Source: Mesorhizobium sp. J8 (lineage in GTDB: Bacteria; Pseudomonadota; Alphaproteobacteria; Rhizobiales; Rhizobiaceae). From it: a stretch of DNA of 64,000 nucleotides. A program made the position numbers and the translations under genes. The DNA lies in NCBI RefSeq assembly GCF_016591715.1, contig NZ_AP024109.1, positions 620,001 to 684,000 of the forward strand. The letters run 5' to 3'. Positions 1,571 through 52,102 of this stretch are shown here, piece by piece (the stretch's first letter is position 1; each line of letters opens with the position of its first letter). The notes under the pieces were generated by a model. It searched no databases and was not told the DNA's origin. It was given only the letters and a program-made list of their open reading frames with translations.

Positions 1571-2455
1571 ATGAACGCAGATCCGGACAACACCTCCGCC
1601 GTGGCGGCTTGCGCGACGTCGCATGCGCCATGGAGCGGATTAACCAGCCTGCGGCTAGGCTTCGTCGGCGCCTTGCTTGCGATCGCAGCGACCCTTGCCG
1701 GGAGCCTGCATCCCGCGCATGCGCAGGAGGCGCAGCAAGAGCTGAAAAGCGCACCGTCCTTCGTCGACGATTTCTCGAATTTCAACCAGTCTCGCTGGTT
1801 CGTCTCGGACGGCTGGACCAACGGCGCCCATCAGAACTGCACTTGGTCGAAGGATCTCGTGCGGCTTTCCGACGGCGTGCTGTCGCTGGGCTTCGAAAAG
1901 CGCAAGCTGAAGGACCGCGATTTCGCCTGCGCCGAGATCCAGACGAAGCAGCGCTACGGCTATGGCGTCTACGAGGCGCGCATGAAGACCGGCACCGGCT
2001 CCGGTCTCAACGCCGCCTTCTTCTCTTATATCGGCCCGCAGGACAAACAGCCCTGGGACGAGATCGACTTCGAGGTCCTCACCAAGGATCCGTCGAAGGT
2101 GCAGGTCAACAGCTACATCCAGGGCAAGCCCAAGAACGGCAAGCTGGTCGACGTCGAGGGCGGCGCCGACAAGGGCTTCAACGATTATGGCTTCGTCTGG
2201 GAGAAGGACCGGCTGCGCTGGTACATCAACGGCAAGCTCGTCCATGAGGTGACCAACCCGGACGAGTTGCCGACCCACTCGCAGAAAATCTTCTTCAGCC
2301 TCTGGGGCAGCGACAAGCTGACCAACTGGATGGGCGCCTTCACCGATCCGGGTAGCAGGGTGATCATGCAGGTCAAGCGCGTCGCTTTCACCGCTTTGGG
2401 CCAGCCATGCCAGTTTCCGGAATCGCTGGCATGCAGCGTAAGTAACAGCAACTAG
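1571..2455 (+). CDS. exoK: Secreted family 16 endo-beta-glycanase (ExoK-like)
   Basis: A 294-aa glycoside hydrolase of family 16 with the catalytic signature EIDFE near residues 164-168 (nucleophile and acid/base glutamates). Family members cut beta-1,3/1,4-glucans with retention; rhizobial ExoK trims nascent succinoglycan-type polysaccharide outside the cell. A long N-terminal stretch with a hydrophobic core (FVGALLAIAATLAG) ending in AHAQ marks a signal peptide. Start: the ATG at 1571 follows AAGGTGAG at good spacing; an in-frame ATG at 1532 has no ribosome site and would lengthen the leader by 13 residues. It stands alone, with repeat DNA and a hairpin downstream before ugd. Confidence 0.88.
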   Translation: MNADPDNTSAVAACATSHAPWSGLTSLRLGFVGALLAIAATLAGSLHPAHAQEAQQELKSAPSFVDDFSNFNQSRWFVSDGWTNGAHQNCTWSKDLVRLSDGVLSLGFEKRKLKDRDFACAEIQTKQRYGYGVYEARMKTGTGSGLNAAFFSYIGPQDKQPWDEIDFEVLTKDPSKVQVNSYIQGKPKNGKLVDVEGGADKGFNDYGFVWEKDRLRWYINGKLVHEVTNPDELPTHSQKIFFSLWGSDKLTNWMGAFTDPGSRVIMQVKRVAFTALGQPCQFPESLACSVSNSN

Positions 2456-2456
2456 G

Positions 2457-2544
2457 GCGTGATCCCGAACCGAAGGACAGCGTCAGCAAAAGTGGCAATC
2501 GGTTTTTGCTTCGCTGACCTGCGGTTCGGATAAGATCATGCTGA
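2457..2544. repeat. Palindromic intergenic repeat, type B (GATCCCGAA family)
   Basis: Starts GTGATCCCGAACCG right after the exoK stop and closes with CGGTTCGGATAAGATCATGC, so the outer arms pair. A related, shorter element with GATCCCGAAAAG...TTCGGAAAAGATC lies at 57139-57186. Short imperfect palindromes like this are common between rhizobial genes; they are non-coding and may act as transcript ends. Confidence 0.6.
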
Positions 2545-2580
2545 ACCAACCAGGCCGTTGGCCTAGGGGACATCTGAACC

Positions 2581-2609
2581 GGCCGGGCTGCTTTTGTGGC
2601 CCGGCCTTT
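2581..2609 (+). terminator. Hairpin terminator between exoK and ugd
   Basis: GGCCGGGC (2581-2588) pairs with GCCCGGCC (2599-2606) around a T-rich loop and is followed by TTTG. It probably ends the exoK transcript; lying 20 bases before the ugd start it could also attenuate ugd. Confidence 0.6.
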
Positions 2610-2626
2610 GACAGGAATAGAACCAA

Positions 2627-3958
2627 ATGAATTTGACGGTGTTTGGGATTGGCTATGTCGGTCTCGTCCAGGCGGCTGTGCTTGCCGAGGTCGGCCACGA
2701 GGTGGTGTGCGTCGATGTCGACGAGAAGAAGGTGGAGCGGCTCAACCAGGGTTTGATCCCGATTTTCGAACCCGGCCTGGAAAGTCTCGTCAAGGAAAAC
2801 CACGCGGCCGGCCGCATCCGCTTCACCACGGATGCCGCGGCGGCCGTCAGGCATGGCCAGATTCAGATGATTGCGGTCGGCACGCCGCCCGGCGAGGATG
2901 GCTCGGCCGATCTGAGATATGTGCTCGCCGTCGCCGAGACCATCGGTCGCGAGATGGACGGCCCCAAGATCGTCGTCGGCAAGTCTACGGTGCCGGTCGG
3001 CACTTGCGAGAAGGTGAAGGCCAAGATCGCCGAGACGCTGAAGAAGCGCGGCCGCGAGGATCTCGCCTTCGACGTCGCCTCAAATCCGGAGTTCCTCAAG
3101 GAGGGCTCGGCGGTCGCCGACTGCATGAAGCCGGACCGCATCATCGTGGGCACCTCCAGCGAGGACACCGAGATGGTGATGCGCGAGCTCTATGCGCCGT
3201 TCAATCGCAACCACGAGAAGATGATCGTGATGGATGTACGCAGTGCCGAATTCACCAAATACGCCGCCAATTGCATGCTGGCGACCAAGATCAGCTTCAT
3301 GAACGAGATGGCCAACCTGGCCGAGCAGCTGGGCGCCGACATCGAGGAGGTGCGCAAGGGCATCGGCTCGGATCCGCGCATCGGCTACCACTTCATCTAT
3401 CCCGGCCTCGGCTATGGCGGCTCCTGCTTCCCGAAGGATGTGCGCGCGCTGATCAAGACCGCTGAGGGCGTCAAGTTCGACGCCAAGCTGCTGCGCGCCG
3501 TCGAGGAGCGCAACAATGCGCAAAAGTCGGTCCTGTTCGATAAGGTCAACCACTATTTCAAGGGCGCGCTCAGGGGCAAGACCTTCGCCGTCTGGGGGCT
3601 GGCCTTCAAGCCAAACACCGACGACATGCGCGAGGCGCCGTCGCGCACGCTGATGGAAGCGCTGTGGGCGGCCGGCGCCAAGGTGCAGGCCTACGATCCC
3701 GAGGCGATGCAGGAGTGCCAGGCGATCTATGGCCTGCGCGAGGATCTGCTTTTGTGCGGCACCAAGGAGGCGGCGCTGCGCGGCGCCAACGCGCTGCTGA
3801 TCTGCACCGAATGGAAGAGCTTCCGCGCGCCGTCCTTCGACGCGCTCAAGGATGCGCTGACGACGCCGGTCATCTTCGATGGCCGCAATCTCTACGATCC
3901 CAAGGTGATCGCGCGCTACGGCATCGAGTATTTCTCCATCGGCAGGATGGCGGCATGA
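2627..3958 (+). CDS. ugd: UDP-glucose 6-dehydrogenase
   Basis: Oxidises UDP-glucose to UDP-glucuronate with two NAD+, supplying glucuronic acid for acidic exopolysaccharide, capsule or LPS. The 443-aa length is typical. The N-terminus carries the Rossmann nucleotide motif GIGYVGL, and the catalytic cysteine (about residue 267) sits in [10 protein letters not shown]; the C-terminal third ([19 protein letters not shown]) is the UDP-binding domain. The start ATG follows AGGAATAGAACCAA. Rhizobial orthologues are often called rkpK. It is the first of a plus-strand run with the GMC oxidoreductase and its small partner. Uridylyl transfer to make its substrate is provided by exoN at 15296. Confidence 0.95.
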
Positions 3959-48223: not shown

Positions 48224-48724
48224 CTACTCGCTCTCGCCGTCCAGCGCCGGCACGGCGACGCCAGCAAGCTCGGCGGCCAGCAGCCGCGCGGCGCCCGCGC
48301 GGGCGATTCGCAGCATCAGCGCCTTGCGCGTCGCGGCCGCCATGCGGTGCTCAGGCGCATCGCGCAGGATCTCGGCGCCATAGCCGTCGGAGAGGATGAA
48401 GCCGCATTCCTCGGGAAAGATGTCAGCCGGAACGCCGGGATGGGTGGCGAAGAAGAAGCGGTCCGAATGCAGCCGGTAGTCCGGCCATTTGCGGTCGACC
48501 CTGAAATCCTCGATCGAGGATTTGATCTCGATGATCCAGATGTCGCCTTGCCTGGTCAGCGCGACGAGATCGGCGCGCCGGCCGGTGGCGAGCGACAGCT
48601 CCGGCAGCACATGCGCGCCCATTTCGCTGAGCAGCCGCTGCACGCCGCGCCGCACCAGCATGGCGCGCTCCGACTGGCGACCGTCGATCAACGGGTTAAG
48701 GGGAATCGGGGAAACGATTGGCAT
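48224..48724 (-). CDS. mmcB: MmcB family DNA repair protein
   Basis: A 166-aa nuclease-like protein with a PD-(D/E)XK pattern: ELSLATGRRADLVALT, then WIIEIKSSIEDFRVDRKWPDY. MmcB proteins act with the ImuB-DnaE2 translesion pathway after DNA damage in alphaproteobacteria. ATG 48724 (MPIVSPIPL) is chosen; ATG 48736 lies four codons upstream and overlaps the divergent interrupted gene. The transposon has inserted 38 bases from its promoter side, so its expression may be altered. Confidence 0.82.
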   Translation of the reverse strand: MPIVSPIPLNPLIDGRQSERAMLVRRGVQRLLSEMGAHVLPELSLATGRRADLVALTRQGDIWIIEIKSSIEDFRVDRKWPDYRLHSDRFFFATHPGVPADIFPEECGFILSDGYGAEILRDAPEHRMAAATRKALMLRIARAGAARLLAAELAGVAVPALDGESE

Positions 48725-48734
48725 AGCAAACACC

Positions 48735-48773
48735 ATGCCAGATTTTGTTCACGGTTTGAACCCGCAAACGAGC
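48735..48773 (+). pseudogene. 5' fragment of a small gene split by the transposon
   Basis: Encodes MPDFVHGLNPQTS, then breaks at the left end of the transposon. If the element and one copy of the 8-bp duplication are removed, the frame joins base 52103 without gap or stop to give a 67-residue protein (see 52103-52267). The ATG is divergent from mmcB. No function recognised. Confidence 0.7.
48766..48773. repeat. Target-site duplication, left copy (AAACGAGC)
   Basis: Directly repeated at 52095-52102, immediately outside the two inverted repeats. Eight bases is the duplication length of the IS1595 family. Confidence 0.9.
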
Positions 48774-48797
48774 GGCGATTATCTGTTTGACAAACCC
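48774..48797 (+). repeat. Left terminal inverted repeat
   Basis: Begins GGCGATTATC and ends TTGACAAACCC. It differs from the right repeat at positions 3, 11 and 13. TTGACA within it faces inward and GATAAT faces outward. Confidence 0.92.
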
Positions 48798-48837
48798 AAC
48801 GTTTAATGTTACACAATAACAACGTCGCGATTAGATC

Positions 48838-48862
48838 GGCCCACCCTTCCACAAGGTGGGCC
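48838..48862. other. Hairpin in the gene-free left part of the transposon
   Basis: GGCCCACC (48838-48845) pairs with GGTGGGCC (48855-48862). The stretch 48798-49093 otherwise has no gene that I can see and is AT-rich; the hairpin could stop transcripts leaving the element. Confidence 0.5.
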
Positions 48863-49093
48863 GTTCGCGTTTTGGGTGGGGTGAAATTTGCCGCTAAATT
48901 TTGCGATGAAAATTTCGATGGTCGCAAAATGTGGTGGTGCGGATCACAATTGCGAATTTGTCAACGATATTTTTTCGCAGAATCTTGTGAACCAAAGCGA
49001 ATTAGTTTAGTTATATCTCCGGGCCTGGCCCACGAGATCGCCTTTGCGGTCGCCCAAAAGCCTCTGCGGAAACGCATGAGGCTTTTTGAGTAT

Positions 49094-49915
49094 CTAGGGT
49101 TTGCGCTCGACGTTTTCAAAGCAGCTGTATTTCGACCCCAGCATTGGCCAATCCTCTTCTTTGAGGTGGCATTCGATCAGCTTCTTATCGTCCATAAGCC
49201 GTTTGTAAGTTCGGTTGCTCGCGTGGTAGCCGCCCATGCAAATCGGCCACAAAAACAGGTCCGCGAACTGCGCCATGGGAGACGATTTCTGTTTCGTCGC
49301 GAATTCGTAGAGGGTTTCCGTGAATTGCTCGGCCGTTAGTGGCGCGTATTTGCCGGAATTGTCCTTAGCGAAAGGCATGCCCTCTGCCTTCATGGTCTCA
49401 TAATAGGCTTTGAGTAGCGCGTCCTCCGGCTTGTTGCAGCGTTCTGGGTGAACGCGCAAACGCAAGTCCATGCTTCGAGCAAACTTAGCAGCGCGCTCTA
49501 CGACAACGCTAAACGCCGTCTTACAAAGCTGCCACGGCGCTTTCTGGTACATTTCCAGATAGCGCGCATTGTAGCCGGGACGATCAATCGTGCATGCGAT
49601 ACCTGTGACGGGCGCATCGCGCATCATCACATAAAGCTCTTCGTAAAACCGCTTTTTGTCGTCGTCGTTCAATCCTCGCAGCCATTCGAAATTCTCATTC
49701 TGCGAACGGATTTCAGATGAGTGCAGAGGCGCCTCGATTGGCCATCTCTCGGAAAAACTGCGGTGAAGTTCGCGTGCCGCTTCCTCTTCATCGCTTCGAA
49801 TAAGCACGCCACCAAACGCAAACCAGTCATAGCCGTGTTCGGGTTTCTTCCCAGGATTGCGGGTAGGATGTCTGGTACCGGAATCGTCCAGATACAAATT
49901 CAACGTTACGGGCAT
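49094..49915 (-). CDS. DUF3800 protein, transposon cargo
   Basis: A 273-aa protein starting MPVTLNLYLDDSGTRHP, with the YLDDSG acidic motif of DUF3800, LHSSEIRSQN as the next conserved acidic block and a C-terminal FADLFLWPICMGGY. The fold is thought to resemble RNase H, so nuclease activity is possible, but no function is proved. DUF3800 genes are often found in mobile elements and defence islands. Six bases separate it from the upstream 58-aa gene, so they are cotranscribed. The ribosome site is weak. Confidence 0.75.
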   Translation of the reverse strand: MPVTLNLYLDDSGTRHPTRNPGKKPEHGYDWFAFGGVLIRSDEEEAARELHRSFSERWPIEAPLHSSEIRSQNENFEWLRGLNDDDKKRFYEELYVMMRDAPVTGIACTIDRPGYNARYLEMYQKAPWQLCKTAFSVVVERAAKFARSMDLRLRVHPERCNKPEDALLKAYYETMKAEGMPFAKDNSGKYAPLTAEQFTETLYEFATKQKSSPMAQFADLFLWPICMGGYHASNRTYKRLMDDKKLIECHLKEEDWPMLGSKYSCFENVERKP

Positions 49916-49921
49916 GGGGGG

Positions 49922-50098
49922 TTATTTCGTTGCCTTTTGGCTTTTCCGGCGCACCAGATCTTTTATTTCATCGTTGGTCAGCTTCGGTGCGTGTGCAATC
50001 TTGTTAACGGCGGCCTCGAAGGCTTCCTCCGATTGGTCTGTTTTCAGTTCGCGGGCCGCTTCCTCAAATTTCTCTTTCTGGGTTTTCTTTGTTGGCAT
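49922..50098 (-). CDS. 58-aa charged protein upstream of DUF3800
   Basis: Begins MPTKKTQKEKFEEAARELK and ends DLVRRKSQKATK: an acidic helical centre between lysine-rich ends, no cysteine. GGGAG stands before the ATG with a short spacer. It is directly upstream of the DUF3800 gene in an arrangement typical of antitoxin-toxin or regulator-effector pairs. Family unknown. Confidence 0.65.
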   Translation of the reverse strand: MPTKKTQKEKFEEAARELKTDQSEEAFEAAVNKIAHAPKLTNDEIKDLVRRKSQKATK

Positions 50099-50138
50099 GG
50101 CGGCTCCCTAACTATTTGTTATCTACAGCTTTTGGCCG

Positions 50139-50273
50139 TCAATAGCATCTAACATGCTGAATCCCTTGACGAAAACCGGAAATAACCCCATATTTGAAGC
50201 CAACGGGAGTGCGATTTGAAATCGCACCCCCGCCGGCAAACGGGTCAAGAACTAATGACTGCTTGCCACACAG
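50139..50273 (-). pseudogene. Fragment with a DNA-methylase motif I
   Basis: An open 44-codon stretch with no start codon reads GKQSLVLDPFAGGGAI, the SAM-binding motif of DNA N-methylases, then about 25 residues of unrelated-looking sequence to a TGA. The frame is closed 5' by TAG at 50274. A 19-base palindrome (GTGCGATTT/AAATCGCAC, 50209-50227) lies exactly where the methylase similarity ends, which suggests a rearrangement point. Looks like the remnant of a lost gene. Confidence 0.45.
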
Positions 50274-50912
50274 CTAACCTCCTTTCTTCGCCCAATCAGG
50301 CGACTTAAGGGGGATGAGTGGGCCAAAGAGATTAGAGCCGGAAAGCAAACTCTCTTTGGTCCGGCTAAGTGCGGAGAGAGGGGGATTCGAACCCCCGGAG
50401 GCCGTGGTGTTCTTGGAGGAACCGACCTCTCCTGATTTGGAGTCAGGCGCATTCAGCCGCTCTGCCATCTCTCCCGTAACAGGCCCGGACGGAATATCCG
50501 GGCCTGAACTTTTTACGAGGTACCAAACCAGCCCGCGCCTCCCCACGATTTGATCGTGGGCGAGGCGGCTTAGCTGAGGGCTAAGGCTGGTGCGCGTAAA
50601 CTCGGTATCGAAACGCTCGTTGATTTTGGTGAGAATATCCAGGGCGACCAACCCGTCAGGGTAGTCGGACAAAACCTGAACAACGTAGTCCTTGATTGTC
50701 CCGCGACGGATGCCACCCTCCTTCCTGTGGTCTGCCGTTTGGACTCCGTTAACCATACCGATTGCCGCCGACGATTTTTCCACGTCAGCCAACTCGGCCT
50801 CCAGCGCCACCAGATAAGATTGCCGCTCCGCGATCTCAGCCCGAAGCGGCGTAATCTTATCCAGAAGCTCCCGATGCCGGGATTTCAGGTAATCGCGGAG
50901 TTCGTTTGTCAT
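50274..50912 (-). CDS. Winged-helix-like protein whose frame runs through a tRNA
   Basis: A 212-aa open frame from ATG 50912. Residues 1-60 are a coiled coil (RHRELLDKITPLRAEIAERQSYLVALEAELADVEK); residues 75-130 (RGTIKDYVVQVLSDYPDGLVALDILTKINERFDTEFTRTSLSPQLSRLAHDQIV) look like a winged helix. From about residue 145 the frame is the translation of the tRNA gene (GEMAERLNAPDSKSG...), so the natural end is probably near YLVKSS and the tail is either read-through or non-functional. A promoter-like pair precedes it at 50921-50948. Possibly a transposon regulator. Confidence 0.6.
   Translation of the reverse strand: MTNELRDYLKSRHRELLDKITPLRAEIAERQSYLVALEAELADVEKSSAAIGMVNGVQTADHRKEGGIRRGTIKDYVVQVLSDYPDGLVALDILTKINERFDTEFTRTSLSPQLSRLAHDQIVGRRGLVWYLVKSSGPDIPSGPVTGEMAERLNAPDSKSGEVGSSKNTTASGGSNPPLSALSRTKESLLSGSNLFGPLIPLKSPDWAKKGG
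50372..50474 (-). tRNA. Class II (serine-like) tRNA with CCA anticodon and very long variable arm
   Basis: Acceptor GGAGAGA/TCTCTCC pairs at all seven positions with discriminator G; T arm GGGGG-TTCGAAT-CCCCC; anticodon stem CCTGA/TCAGG with loop CTCCAAA, anticodon CCA (reads UGG, Trp). The variable region is about 34 bases: GAGGTCG pairs with CGGCCTC and inside it GTTC pairs with GAAC, a two-part extra arm. The body resembles tRNA-Ser (acceptor, discriminator and T arm like E. coli tRNA-Ser), not the class I tRNA-Trp. No CCA tail is encoded. It is 103 bases, longer than normal Ser tRNAs. It lies in the transposon. Folded by hand. Confidence 0.8.
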
Positions 50913-50920
50913 AGAACTCC

Positions 50921-50948
50921 ATATAGTCGCGCTCGGAGTTTGTTTCAA
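50921..50948 (-). promoter_or_regulatory. Promoter of the winged-helix/tRNA unit, probably leaderless
   Basis: On the minus strand TTGAAA (50943-50948), 16 bases, CTATAT (50921-50926), a good alphaproteobacterial promoter. The ATG at 50912 begins only nine bases past the -10 box, so transcription would start at or just before the ATG, giving a leaderless mRNA. Confidence 0.55.
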
Positions 50949-51090
50949 GTCTCTGTAGTCAGACAGCAACAGATGTTGTTTAAACGCGACTCTGGTTAAG
51001 TCAGCTAGGCTGACCTATTTCTTTCGCTGCCGATACCGCCAGAGCGGTAGCTCTAGCTGAACCGGCTTGCGGTAGCGCTTGCGCTTATCG

Positions 51091-52032
51091 TCAAGCAGGT
51101 CTGCGATAGGTAAGGCGCTTACCCCTCACGCCATTCAGGGCGATGAAAGCGCGGGTACCGTCATCGACGCCAAGCGCAACGCGGTTCGAATACCGGAAGT
51201 CGAATTCGGCAAGGTAGCGGTGCAGATGGTGTTCGCTGCAATGCTGATAGATGCCCTTCATGCCGCGCTTGAAGATCGAAAAGAAGCCTTCGACGGTGTT
51301 GGTGTGGACGTTGCCGCGAACATATTCGTCCTTGGAATGCGTGACGAATTCATGCGAGGCGAAATCCTGGCTGGCGCGGCGATAGATACCGCTCTCGTCG
51401 GTCATCAACGCGCTTTCCTTGGCGATGTTGGCGCGGACGATAGGCATGACGTTACCCATGCGGGCGGTATCGACATGGAAGGAACGGGCCGTGCCGCCGC
51501 GCTCCACCAGCGTAACGACCGTGTTCTTGTGAGCGCTGCCGCCGCGCTTGACGGGAGAACCCTGCAAACGACCGATATAGGTTTCGTCGGCTTCGACAGT
51601 CTTGCCGCCGCCGCCCATCGGGGAAAGCTCGCCAGAGGCCATAGCAAGGCGAATGCGATGGCAGAGGAACCAAGCGGCCTCATAAGTGCATTCGAGTATG
51701 CGGTGCATCTGGTGGGCGCTGATACCCTTCTTAGAGGCGCACATAAGGTGGATGGCCTGTAGCCACTTGGTGAGCGGCAGATGGCTTTCCTCGAAGATCG
51801 TGCCCATACGCACGGTGAACTGCGAACGGCAGGCGCGGCACTTGTACAGGCCGTGACGCTCGACGCCGTTCGGGTTCTTCTTGGAGGGCTTGGTGCGAAC
51901 GCCCTTCAAAGCGTAGTGGCGATCTACACTACCGCACTTGGGGCAAACGGGGCCGTTCGGCCACAGTATGGATTCGACATGCTCGAAAGCCTTGGCTTCG
52001 TCATGGAATTCGGGGCGGGACAAAACGGACAT
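51091..52032 (-). CDS. IS1595-family transposase
   Basis: A 313-aa ISXO2-like transposase. N-terminal zinc ribbon CPKCGSVDRHYAL with a second pair in YKCRACRSQF; catalytic acidic residues in VEADETYIG and MTDESGIY, and the family asparagine/glutamate in NVHTNTVEGFFSIFKRGMKGIYQH. The ATG at 52032 follows AAGGAG. The TTGACA in the right inverted repeat, 17 bases before GATAAC, could be its promoter. It is intact, so the element may still move. Confidence 0.93.
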   Translation of the reverse strand: MSVLSRPEFHDEAKAFEHVESILWPNGPVCPKCGSVDRHYALKGVRTKPSKKNPNGVERHGLYKCRACRSQFTVRMGTIFEESHLPLTKWLQAIHLMCASKKGISAHQMHRILECTYEAAWFLCHRIRLAMASGELSPMGGGGKTVEADETYIGRLQGSPVKRGGSAHKNTVVTLVERGGTARSFHVDTARMGNVMPIVRANIAKESALMTDESGIYRRASQDFASHEFVTHSKDEYVRGNVHTNTVEGFFSIFKRGMKGIYQHCSEHHLHRYLAEFDFRYSNRVALGVDDGTRAFIALNGVRGKRLTYRRPA

Positions 52033-52070
52033 TGCGGTAACTCCTTGGAATCGTTATCGCAGTTCCATTT

Positions 52071-52094
52071 GGGTTTGTCAACCGGATAATCACC
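52071..52094 (-). repeat. Right terminal inverted repeat
   Basis: Reads GGGTTTGTCAACC and then GGATAATCACC on the plus strand; reverse complement of the left repeat with three mismatches. Confidence 0.92.
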
Positions 52095-52102
52095 AAACGA
52101 GC
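52095..52102. repeat. Target-site duplication, right copy (AAACGAGC)
   Basis: Identical to 48766-48773 and immediately outside the right inverted repeat. Confidence 0.9.

Follow-up and report, generated by a model that had tools for sequence, protein, structure and literature searches.

A serine-type tRNA with anticodon CCA in an IS1595-family transposon of Mesorhizobium sp. J8, and hairpin-preceded tRNA-like structures in related elements

What could a tRNA with a serine-type body and a tryptophan anticodon be doing inside a transposon? The question is raised by a window of 64,000 nucleotides (positions 620,001 to 684,000 of contig NZ_AP024109.1) of the Mesorhizobium sp. J8 genome, whose coordinates are used throughout. 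A preliminary description had reported such a tRNA, with a discriminator G, anticodon CCA and a variable arm of about 34 bases in two stems, in an IS1595 transposon and within an open reading frame that runs through it. All of this was found as described, on the minus strand, with a 7-bp acceptor, a 5-bp T stem, G73 and a variable arm of 34 nt.

The tRNA and the transposon that carries it

50372..50474, minus strand: class II tRNA of serine type, anticodon CCA (Rfam RF00005, 58.2 bits; no encoded CCA end)
50438..50440, minus strand: anticodon CCA (loop 50436-50442, loop letters CTCCAAA)
50397..50430, minus strand: 34-nt variable region, outer 7-bp and inner 4-bp stem, stacked
48774..52094, genes on the minus strand: complete IS1595-family transposon, 3321 bp, with terminal inverted repeats and 8-bp direct repeats
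48766..48773, no strand: target-site duplication AAACGAGC, low end (8-bp direct repeat)
52095..52102, no strand: target-site duplication AAACGAGC, high end (8-bp direct repeat)
48774..48799, plus strand: terminal inverted repeat GGCGATTATCTGTTTGACAAACCCAA (pair matching at 23/26)
52069..52094, minus strand: terminal inverted repeat GGTGATTATCCGGTTGACAAACCCAA (pair matching at 23/26)
51091..52032, minus strand: IS1595-type transposase, 313 aa (PF12762, E 1.6e-32; PF12760, E 1.3e-13)
50274..50912, minus strand: coiled-coil/winged-helix open reading frame, 212 aa, ending in KKGG and a stop, its frame running through the hairpin and the tRNA
50480..50506, minus strand: hairpin of 11 bp, 5 nt before the tRNA (score 10.3; maximum 8.0 in 30 shuffles)
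50278..50285, minus strand: Shine-Dalgarno-like stretch AAAGGAGG, coding for part of KKGG
50245..50271, minus strand: micro-ORF GTG-TGG-CAA..., VWQAVISS and a stop (motif enriched behind relatives)
49922..50098, minus strand: small cargo protein, 58 aa (similar stretches lie close to IS1595 copies in the genus)
49094..49915, minus strand: cargo DUF3800 protein, 273 aa (PF12686, E 1.2e-07, 33 bits, cut-off 21)

The tRNA is 103 nt long and is the sole match over the Rfam gathering threshold in the whole window (cut-off 29, E 5.6e-10), so the covariance-model check that the preliminary description had called for came out in its favour. Both marks of a class II tRNA are present, i.e. a score over the curated cut-off and an intact cloverleaf with a long arm. 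ARAGORN called no tRNA in the 64 kb, a miss that may be due to the long variable arm. Folded under the cloverleaf constraint, the sequence is 2.8 kcal/mol less stable than at the minimum free energy, compared with 0.0-2.1 for the four ordinary tRNA-Ser of the host, and the folding z-score is only -2.31 (2 of 200 shuffles equally or more stable); the case is thus built on the covariance model and the relatives and not on stability.

With regard to identity, the acceptor, D arm, T arm and long arm are serine-like, and the sequence is 77-87 % identical to the host tRNA-Ser genes over aligned positions. The body differs from that of a tRNA-Trp, being class II and not class I in spite of the CCA anticodon. 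tRNA-Sec has the anticodon UCA, and neither this nor its 13-bp acceptor domain was found (12 bp, 7/5, and CCA). The tRNA-Ser determinants given in the partial text of PMC7609411, the long arm and G73, are present; the anticodon is not a serine one. Since the host genome (one contig, 6.69 Mb; 49 tRNA-model matches, the window tRNA among them) encodes four serine tRNAs (TGA, GCT, CGA and GGA) and one normal tRNA-Trp, the window tRNA is an extra copy; the letters that follow it, in place of an encoded CCA end, are GCAC. Two other host tRNAs were noted in passing, i.e. one without an ARAGORN amino-acid assignment (L031 62-136, a second partial tRNA match lying beside it) and a tRNA-Gln(TTG) without an encoded CCA (L043 50-120).

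Searched as DNA, the window tRNA matched 99 of 151 family genomes, with its own copy as the only full-length one among the matches listed. Five plasmid records were matched, each over 25 % of the query, and 58 phage records, two of which cover at least 80 %, both being tRNA-Ser at 69 %. On the strength of the covariance model and of the relatives described below, we regard the sequence as very probably a real transposon-borne tRNA.

The element around it has the transposase domain PF12762, the terminal inverted repeats and the 8-bp duplication of the IS1595 family, and its genes are ordered on the minus strand as transposase, coiled-coil/winged-helix gene, tRNA, 58-aa protein and DUF3800 protein. 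PADLOC had no match for either the DUF3800 or the coiled-coil/winged-helix protein. Parts of the region were matched in all 31 genus genomes searched, and IS1595 units ending at the position of window 52094 are present in many relatives of the genus. In seven of 12 fetched genus regions (L181 and L183-L188), an IS1595 unit occurs together with the flanking gene; in L190 the unit is partial. The region beside this gene (window 48224-48800) looks like an IS1595 hot spot, judging from the same 7 of 12 fetched loci.

Relatives of serine and alanine type

Is the tRNA a peculiarity of this one copy? A protein search with the 212-aa frame, which crosses the tRNA from 50912 to 50274 without a stop, returned 13 proteins, with P0002 at 76 % identity and full coverage. 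The frames of P0002, P0003, P0004 and P0007, and in wider searches (best 120 of 279 and best 120 of 511 proteins) those of P0017, P0038 and P0050, cross an apparent serine-type tRNA, the first four at the same place; together with the window this makes eight of 169 proteins examined. The tRNAs of these seven records were judged from the protein letters, and the anticodon of P0017 is uncertain; its loop appears to differ, with DLGSG where the others have DSKSG. In P0014, the gene and hairpin letters are directly followed by those of the micro-peptide, without a tRNA.

The class II cases read at the DNA level are the window tRNA and that of L185, an IS1595 transposon of the same genus. The latter tRNA (54.9 bits) has the anticodon UUA and U73 instead of G73, with a hairpin just upstream and a terminator-like stem downstream. 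The preliminary description had proposed a search for homologues in other IS1595 elements; this one is a class II tRNA whose anticodon is not CCA.

The gene itself belongs to a family weakly resembling HARE-HTH (of 26 aligned members, 14 hit it at E <= 1, the best at 6e-5), the window's own member being absent among the hits shown for the family. This family was found in 8 of 397 genomes of the order, with one copy in each of 24 of the 25 genomes reached through the loci and two in the remaining one. With the winged-helix proteins, tblastn had no match in phages or plasmids, and a DNA pattern search of viral contigs gave 0 matches.

A second kind of structure emerged at the loci of gene relatives (25 genome, 5 viral), in a scan for NCC preceded by an acceptor and T arm. 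Of 32 loci, five were positive, i.e. L079, L085, L094, L097 and L107; in the first four the structure lies at the end of the ORF (0, 0, 0 and 1 of 100 shuffles, respectively), while that of L107, 235 nt before the ORF end, was taken as chance. These alanine-type structures are about 70-77 nt long, have the form of a mini-tmRNA with G3:U70, and show no recognisable anticodon arm; their T-loop sequences differ. The tmRNA model RF00023 matched them end to end with the middle deleted in four of six loci (L094, 2.7e-9; L079, 2.7e-8; L097, 1.7e-5; L091, 7.6e-5), with no match in L085 or L086, and in three of 15 further loci (L186, 4.3e-11; L131, 4.4e-7; L116, 7e-7), all at sub-threshold scores of 21.3-36.6 bits against a cut-off of 47. 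Matches to sX6 (RF02225; PMC5559785 and PMC3771888, each in partial text) in L091 and L097 were dropped, with 9 of 150 genomes matched and 0 over the cut-off.

The stems of the alanine type covary. Eight sequences, chosen partly for pairing, gave a covariation score of 0.405 against 0.153, with 96.9 % of cells paired (0 of 500 shuffles as high in either case). Both partners vary in the acceptor pairs 5:71, 6:70 and 7:69 and in two pairs of the T stem, and G3:U70 is constant in all eight. Two of the five measures are weak, i.e. double-change pairs and further pair types, for which 41 and 101 of 500 shuffles, respectively, were as high. Of the erosion of stems or anticodon loops in homologues, which according to the preliminary description would refute its reading, only one half is seen: stems are kept in the alanine type with compensatory changes, anticodons are not.

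A model trained on eight alanine-type sequences, R1, scored at least 53 bits in 7 of the 25 genome loci of gene relatives (L079, L085, L087, L091, L093, L094 and L097). L093, which lies outside the training set, reached 53.3 bits compared with 31.4 and 39.2 for tRNA-Ala controls, and L086, at 31.3, did not rise above them. A genome search with R1 gave matches in 6 of 397 genomes of the order, in 2 of 398 of the phylum and in 1 of 40 of the genus. The order and phylum matches fall in seven distinct places, i.e. two already known (L131 and L116), two ordinary tRNA-Ala at 48 bits (L216 and L217) and three new ones, L213 (58.8), L214 (56.9) and L215 (51.3 bits, close to the genomic tRNA-Ala). Duplicates were counted once (L087, L116, L212 and L222; L131, L211 and L221; L213 and L218; L214 and L219; L215 and L220; L186 and L225). 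The tRNA-like end of tmRNA, with G3:U70 and A73, was seen in 13 of 13 alanine-type structures examined, namely the eight training sequences, L086, L093 and L213-L215, of which the last five carry some bias because R1 favours both features.

Hairpin, micro-ORF and cargo

In both types, a hairpin usually precedes the structure at a distance of 2-17 nt. It exceeds all 30 of its shuffles in 11 of 15 structure-bearing loci, narrowly so in L215, whereas those of L079, L085, L086 and L213 do not. A joint descriptor of hairpin and structure yielded nine hits over 658 kb, counting both strands, compared with 0.67 for each pass through shuffled sequence, in loci chosen partly for earlier finds; seven hits lie in structure-bearing elements, one is a genuine chromosomal tRNA-Ser (L088) and one apparently chance (L202). 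The window hairpin also scores as an intrinsic terminator on the plus strand (2 found, shuffled mean 1.3), and may simply be a terminator.

Seven of the 15 structure-bearing loci (the window, L185, L186, L097, L218, L220 and L221) lie inside elements with 8-bp repeats and terminal inverted repeats, as judged by a repeat scan run without a shuffled control, in which three of the seven have 18/18 matching inverted repeats and a 7-bp candidate in L091 was left out. The transposases are of IS1595 type in L186, L218, L220 and L221 and IS1-like in L097; that of L185 matches the window's at 78 % and is split over two frames. We conclude that transposons of IS1595 and IS1 type, and relatives of the gene, probably share a pattern of a hairpin followed by a tRNA-like structure of serine or alanine type. 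Sixteen further IS1595-like loci of the genus (of 18) gave no Rfam tRNA or tmRNA match, so the structure is optional in such transposons.

Two sub-threshold Rfam matches near IS1595-like copies are recorded separately, i.e. mir-9456 at L202 2793-2905, almost surely a simple inverted repeat, and the Brucella sRNA BASRCI27 at L208 1915-2071 (45.2 of 59.8 bits).

Cargo differs between elements. It comprises a HEPN protein with a nucleotidyltransferase in the IS1595 element of L221 (3371-4193, plus strand) and a SocA/Panacea antitoxin in that of L220 (4653-5258, plus strand); among genus IS1595 elements, PADLOC recognised BstA in L187 (1101-2078, plus strand) and a HEC-09 NYN protein in L183 (597-1265, minus strand). 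L185 encodes a 481-aa cargo protein (1681-3126, plus strand) without a Pfam match at E 0.1 or a PADLOC match.

A Shine-Dalgarno-like stretch with a micro-ORF beginning (A/G)TG-TGG was observed after the winged-helix gene or the tRNA-like structure in the window (50245-50285, minus strand) and in L084, L089, L091, L095, L186 and L218, with the peptides VWQAVISS, VWQTVTTVG, MWQTALLN, MWQTAFLG, MWSTKIIDV and VWQAFTLE, each followed by a stop. The strict form of the motif occurs in 6 of 30 loci, where shuffles average 0.19, and the loose form in 9 of 30, where they average 0.96; the L218 micro-ORF stems from the repeat scan and is outside this count. Two ideas connected with it were rejected. The KKGG tail is no proof of selection on the protein, as it encodes AAGAAAGGAGG, Shine-Dalgarno-like and placed before the micro-ORF, and as relatives that stop before the tRNA would be absent from read-through records. 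Decoding of the micro-ORF UGG by the window tRNA is not a general mechanism, because L185 has UUA and the alanine type has no anticodon.

A possible role in charging and processing instead of decoding

Considering that the serine and alanine types recur while the anticodon varies (CCA, UUA, another one in P0017) or is absent, selection appears to act on the shape and the acceptor end and not on decoding, which suggests that the tRNA shape and the charging end are kept and the decoding triplet is not. Recoding of tryptophan codons to serine, which the preliminary description had inferred in case of serine charging, is for the same reason unlikely to be the purpose of the window tRNA; the L185 triplet, the different P0017 loop and the alanine type without an anticodon arm all speak against it. 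The other thought in that description, i.e. a regulatory or decoy RNA, we count as supported.

As to how such a structure might work, SerRS relies on the long arm and G73 and AlaRS on G3:U70 (partial text of PMC7609411). Our best guess, held tentatively, is a processing element that shares a transcript with the gene, is cleaved by RNase P and could be charged with serine or alanine. As a gap of 2-17 nt hardly accommodates a separate promoter, the hairpin and the structure probably belong to the transcript of the upstream gene. RNase P would then cut at the 5' end of the tRNA-like structure, leaving an mRNA that ends in the hairpin, and the released RNA could be matured by the CCA-adding enzyme and charged by SerRS, or by AlaRS in the relatives. 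Selection would then act on the tRNA shape with its chargeable end, and the role would probably be to set mRNA ends and the expression of the transposon genes. Several observations count against this explanation. In the window, the cut would strip the overlapping frame of its stop codon and yield a non-stop mRNA, which is hard to reconcile with it if the cut does not serve to limit the overlapping product; and L185 has U73 instead of the G73 of the serine type, next to a transposase split over two frames. The four hairpins that do not exceed their shuffles, the low R1 score of L086, the genomic tRNA-Ala scoring close to L215, the missing tmRNA matches in L085 and L086, the two weak covariation measures with sequences chosen partly for pairing, the optional presence of the structure and the terminator-like hairpin also weigh on this side.

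The main rival to RNase P processing is a decoy or antitoxin RNA, serving as bait or brake for tRNA-cutting nucleases of the cargo, of phages or of host defence. Some HEPN toxins cut tRNA, and the HEPN protein with its nucleotidyltransferase and the Panacea antitoxin in structure-bearing elements, as well as BstA and HEC-09 NYN in neighbouring ones, would fit this. Yet the cargo changes from element to element while the type of structure recurs, the elements with BstA and HEC-09 show no tRNA-like structure, and the DUF3800 and coiled-coil/winged-helix proteins of the window lack a PADLOC match, which makes us consider a decoy unlikely.

That the transposon picked up a host or foreign tRNA-Ser gene by chance, which has since drifted without a role, would agree with the 77-87 % identity to host genes and the optional presence of the structure. 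Given the intact stems of the window tRNA, P0002 and six further records reading through a serine-type tRNA at the same place, and the recurrence of alanine-type elements with G3:U70 in 13 of 13, we think capture quite improbable. Much the same holds, at a still lower level of credence, for a missense suppressor charged by SerRS, which would insert serine at UGG codons (and in L185 read UAA): the long arm, G73 and intact cloverleaf suit it, and allo-tRNAs with foreign anticodons insert serine or alanine in E. coli (partial text of PMC7609411), but the anticodon is not conserved among the relatives and is missing in the alanine type, the normal host tRNA-Trp reads UGG, and serine in place of tryptophan would be harmful.

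A tryptophan tRNA in class II form is highly improbable. Bacterial TrpRS reads the CCA anticodon and G73, both present in the window tRNA, and could charge it with tryptophan; against this stand the serine-like acceptor, D arm, T arm and long arm, and the UUA and U73 of L185. Least credible of all are scars of elements integrating into tRNA or tmRNA genes, i.e. left-over attachment sites: elements often integrate at serine tRNA and tmRNA genes, but seven of the structures are contained in DDE transposons that have 8-bp repeats, the acceptor has its two strands, with covariation between them, and the T loops differ in sequence.

Among known systems, allo-tRNAs are reportedly those of Mukai et al. 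2017. According to the partial text of PMC7609411, they have a long arm, serine or G3:U70 (alanine) identity and many non-serine anticodons, ochre included, and one allo-tRNA pseudogene overlaps a transposon ORF. This is the closest published thing, which the window tRNA would resemble, as far as its sequence goes, in serine identity combined with a non-serine anticodon. In contrast, allo-tRNA acceptor/T stems are 8/4 or 9/3, whereas the window RNA is 7/5, and the same partial text mentions no upstream hairpin, IS1595 setting or tmRNA-shaped alanine form.

The alanine-type relatives share with tmRNA the acceptor and T arm, G3:U70 and A73, but unlike tmRNA they lack the part with the tag reading frame and the pseudoknots; the window RNA itself is not tmRNA-like. 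With described IS1595-family transposons carrying passenger genes, the elements have the transposase domains, terminal inverted repeats, 8-bp duplications and passengers in common. A literature search, mostly of papers outside subscription, found no described tRNA or tRNA-like cargo in this family and no description of the pattern of hairpin and tRNA-like structure.

For the proposed processing, mascRNA offers an analogy in the way of working, with no kinship claimed (the Rfam match is sub-threshold at 18.7 bits). It is an RNase P-cut tRNA-like structure that sets the end of the upstream transcript, MALAT1, a long non-coding RNA of eukaryotes that contains a triple helix.

It is tempting to speculate, and we do so with some reserve, that transposons of IS1595 and IS1 type use a dedicated RNA of hairpin and tRNA-like structure, in which a serine-type tRNA and a mini-tmRNA of alanine type are interchangeable, and which controls the transposon, or its defence cargo, through charging or processing by tRNA enzymes and not through decoding; this would be a class of mobile-element RNA not described before. 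If chargeable tRNA mimics recur in transposons while their anticodon is not conserved, these transposons would provide a direct test case for non-decoding uses of the tRNA shape in bacteria, in a compact system where RNase P cutting, aminoacylation and transposition or defence are separable by point changes. Such elements might also account for the stray suppressor-like tRNA genes of genomes and metagenomes, and would set the loose link between allo-tRNAs and transposons (partial text of PMC7609411) in a concrete genetic context.
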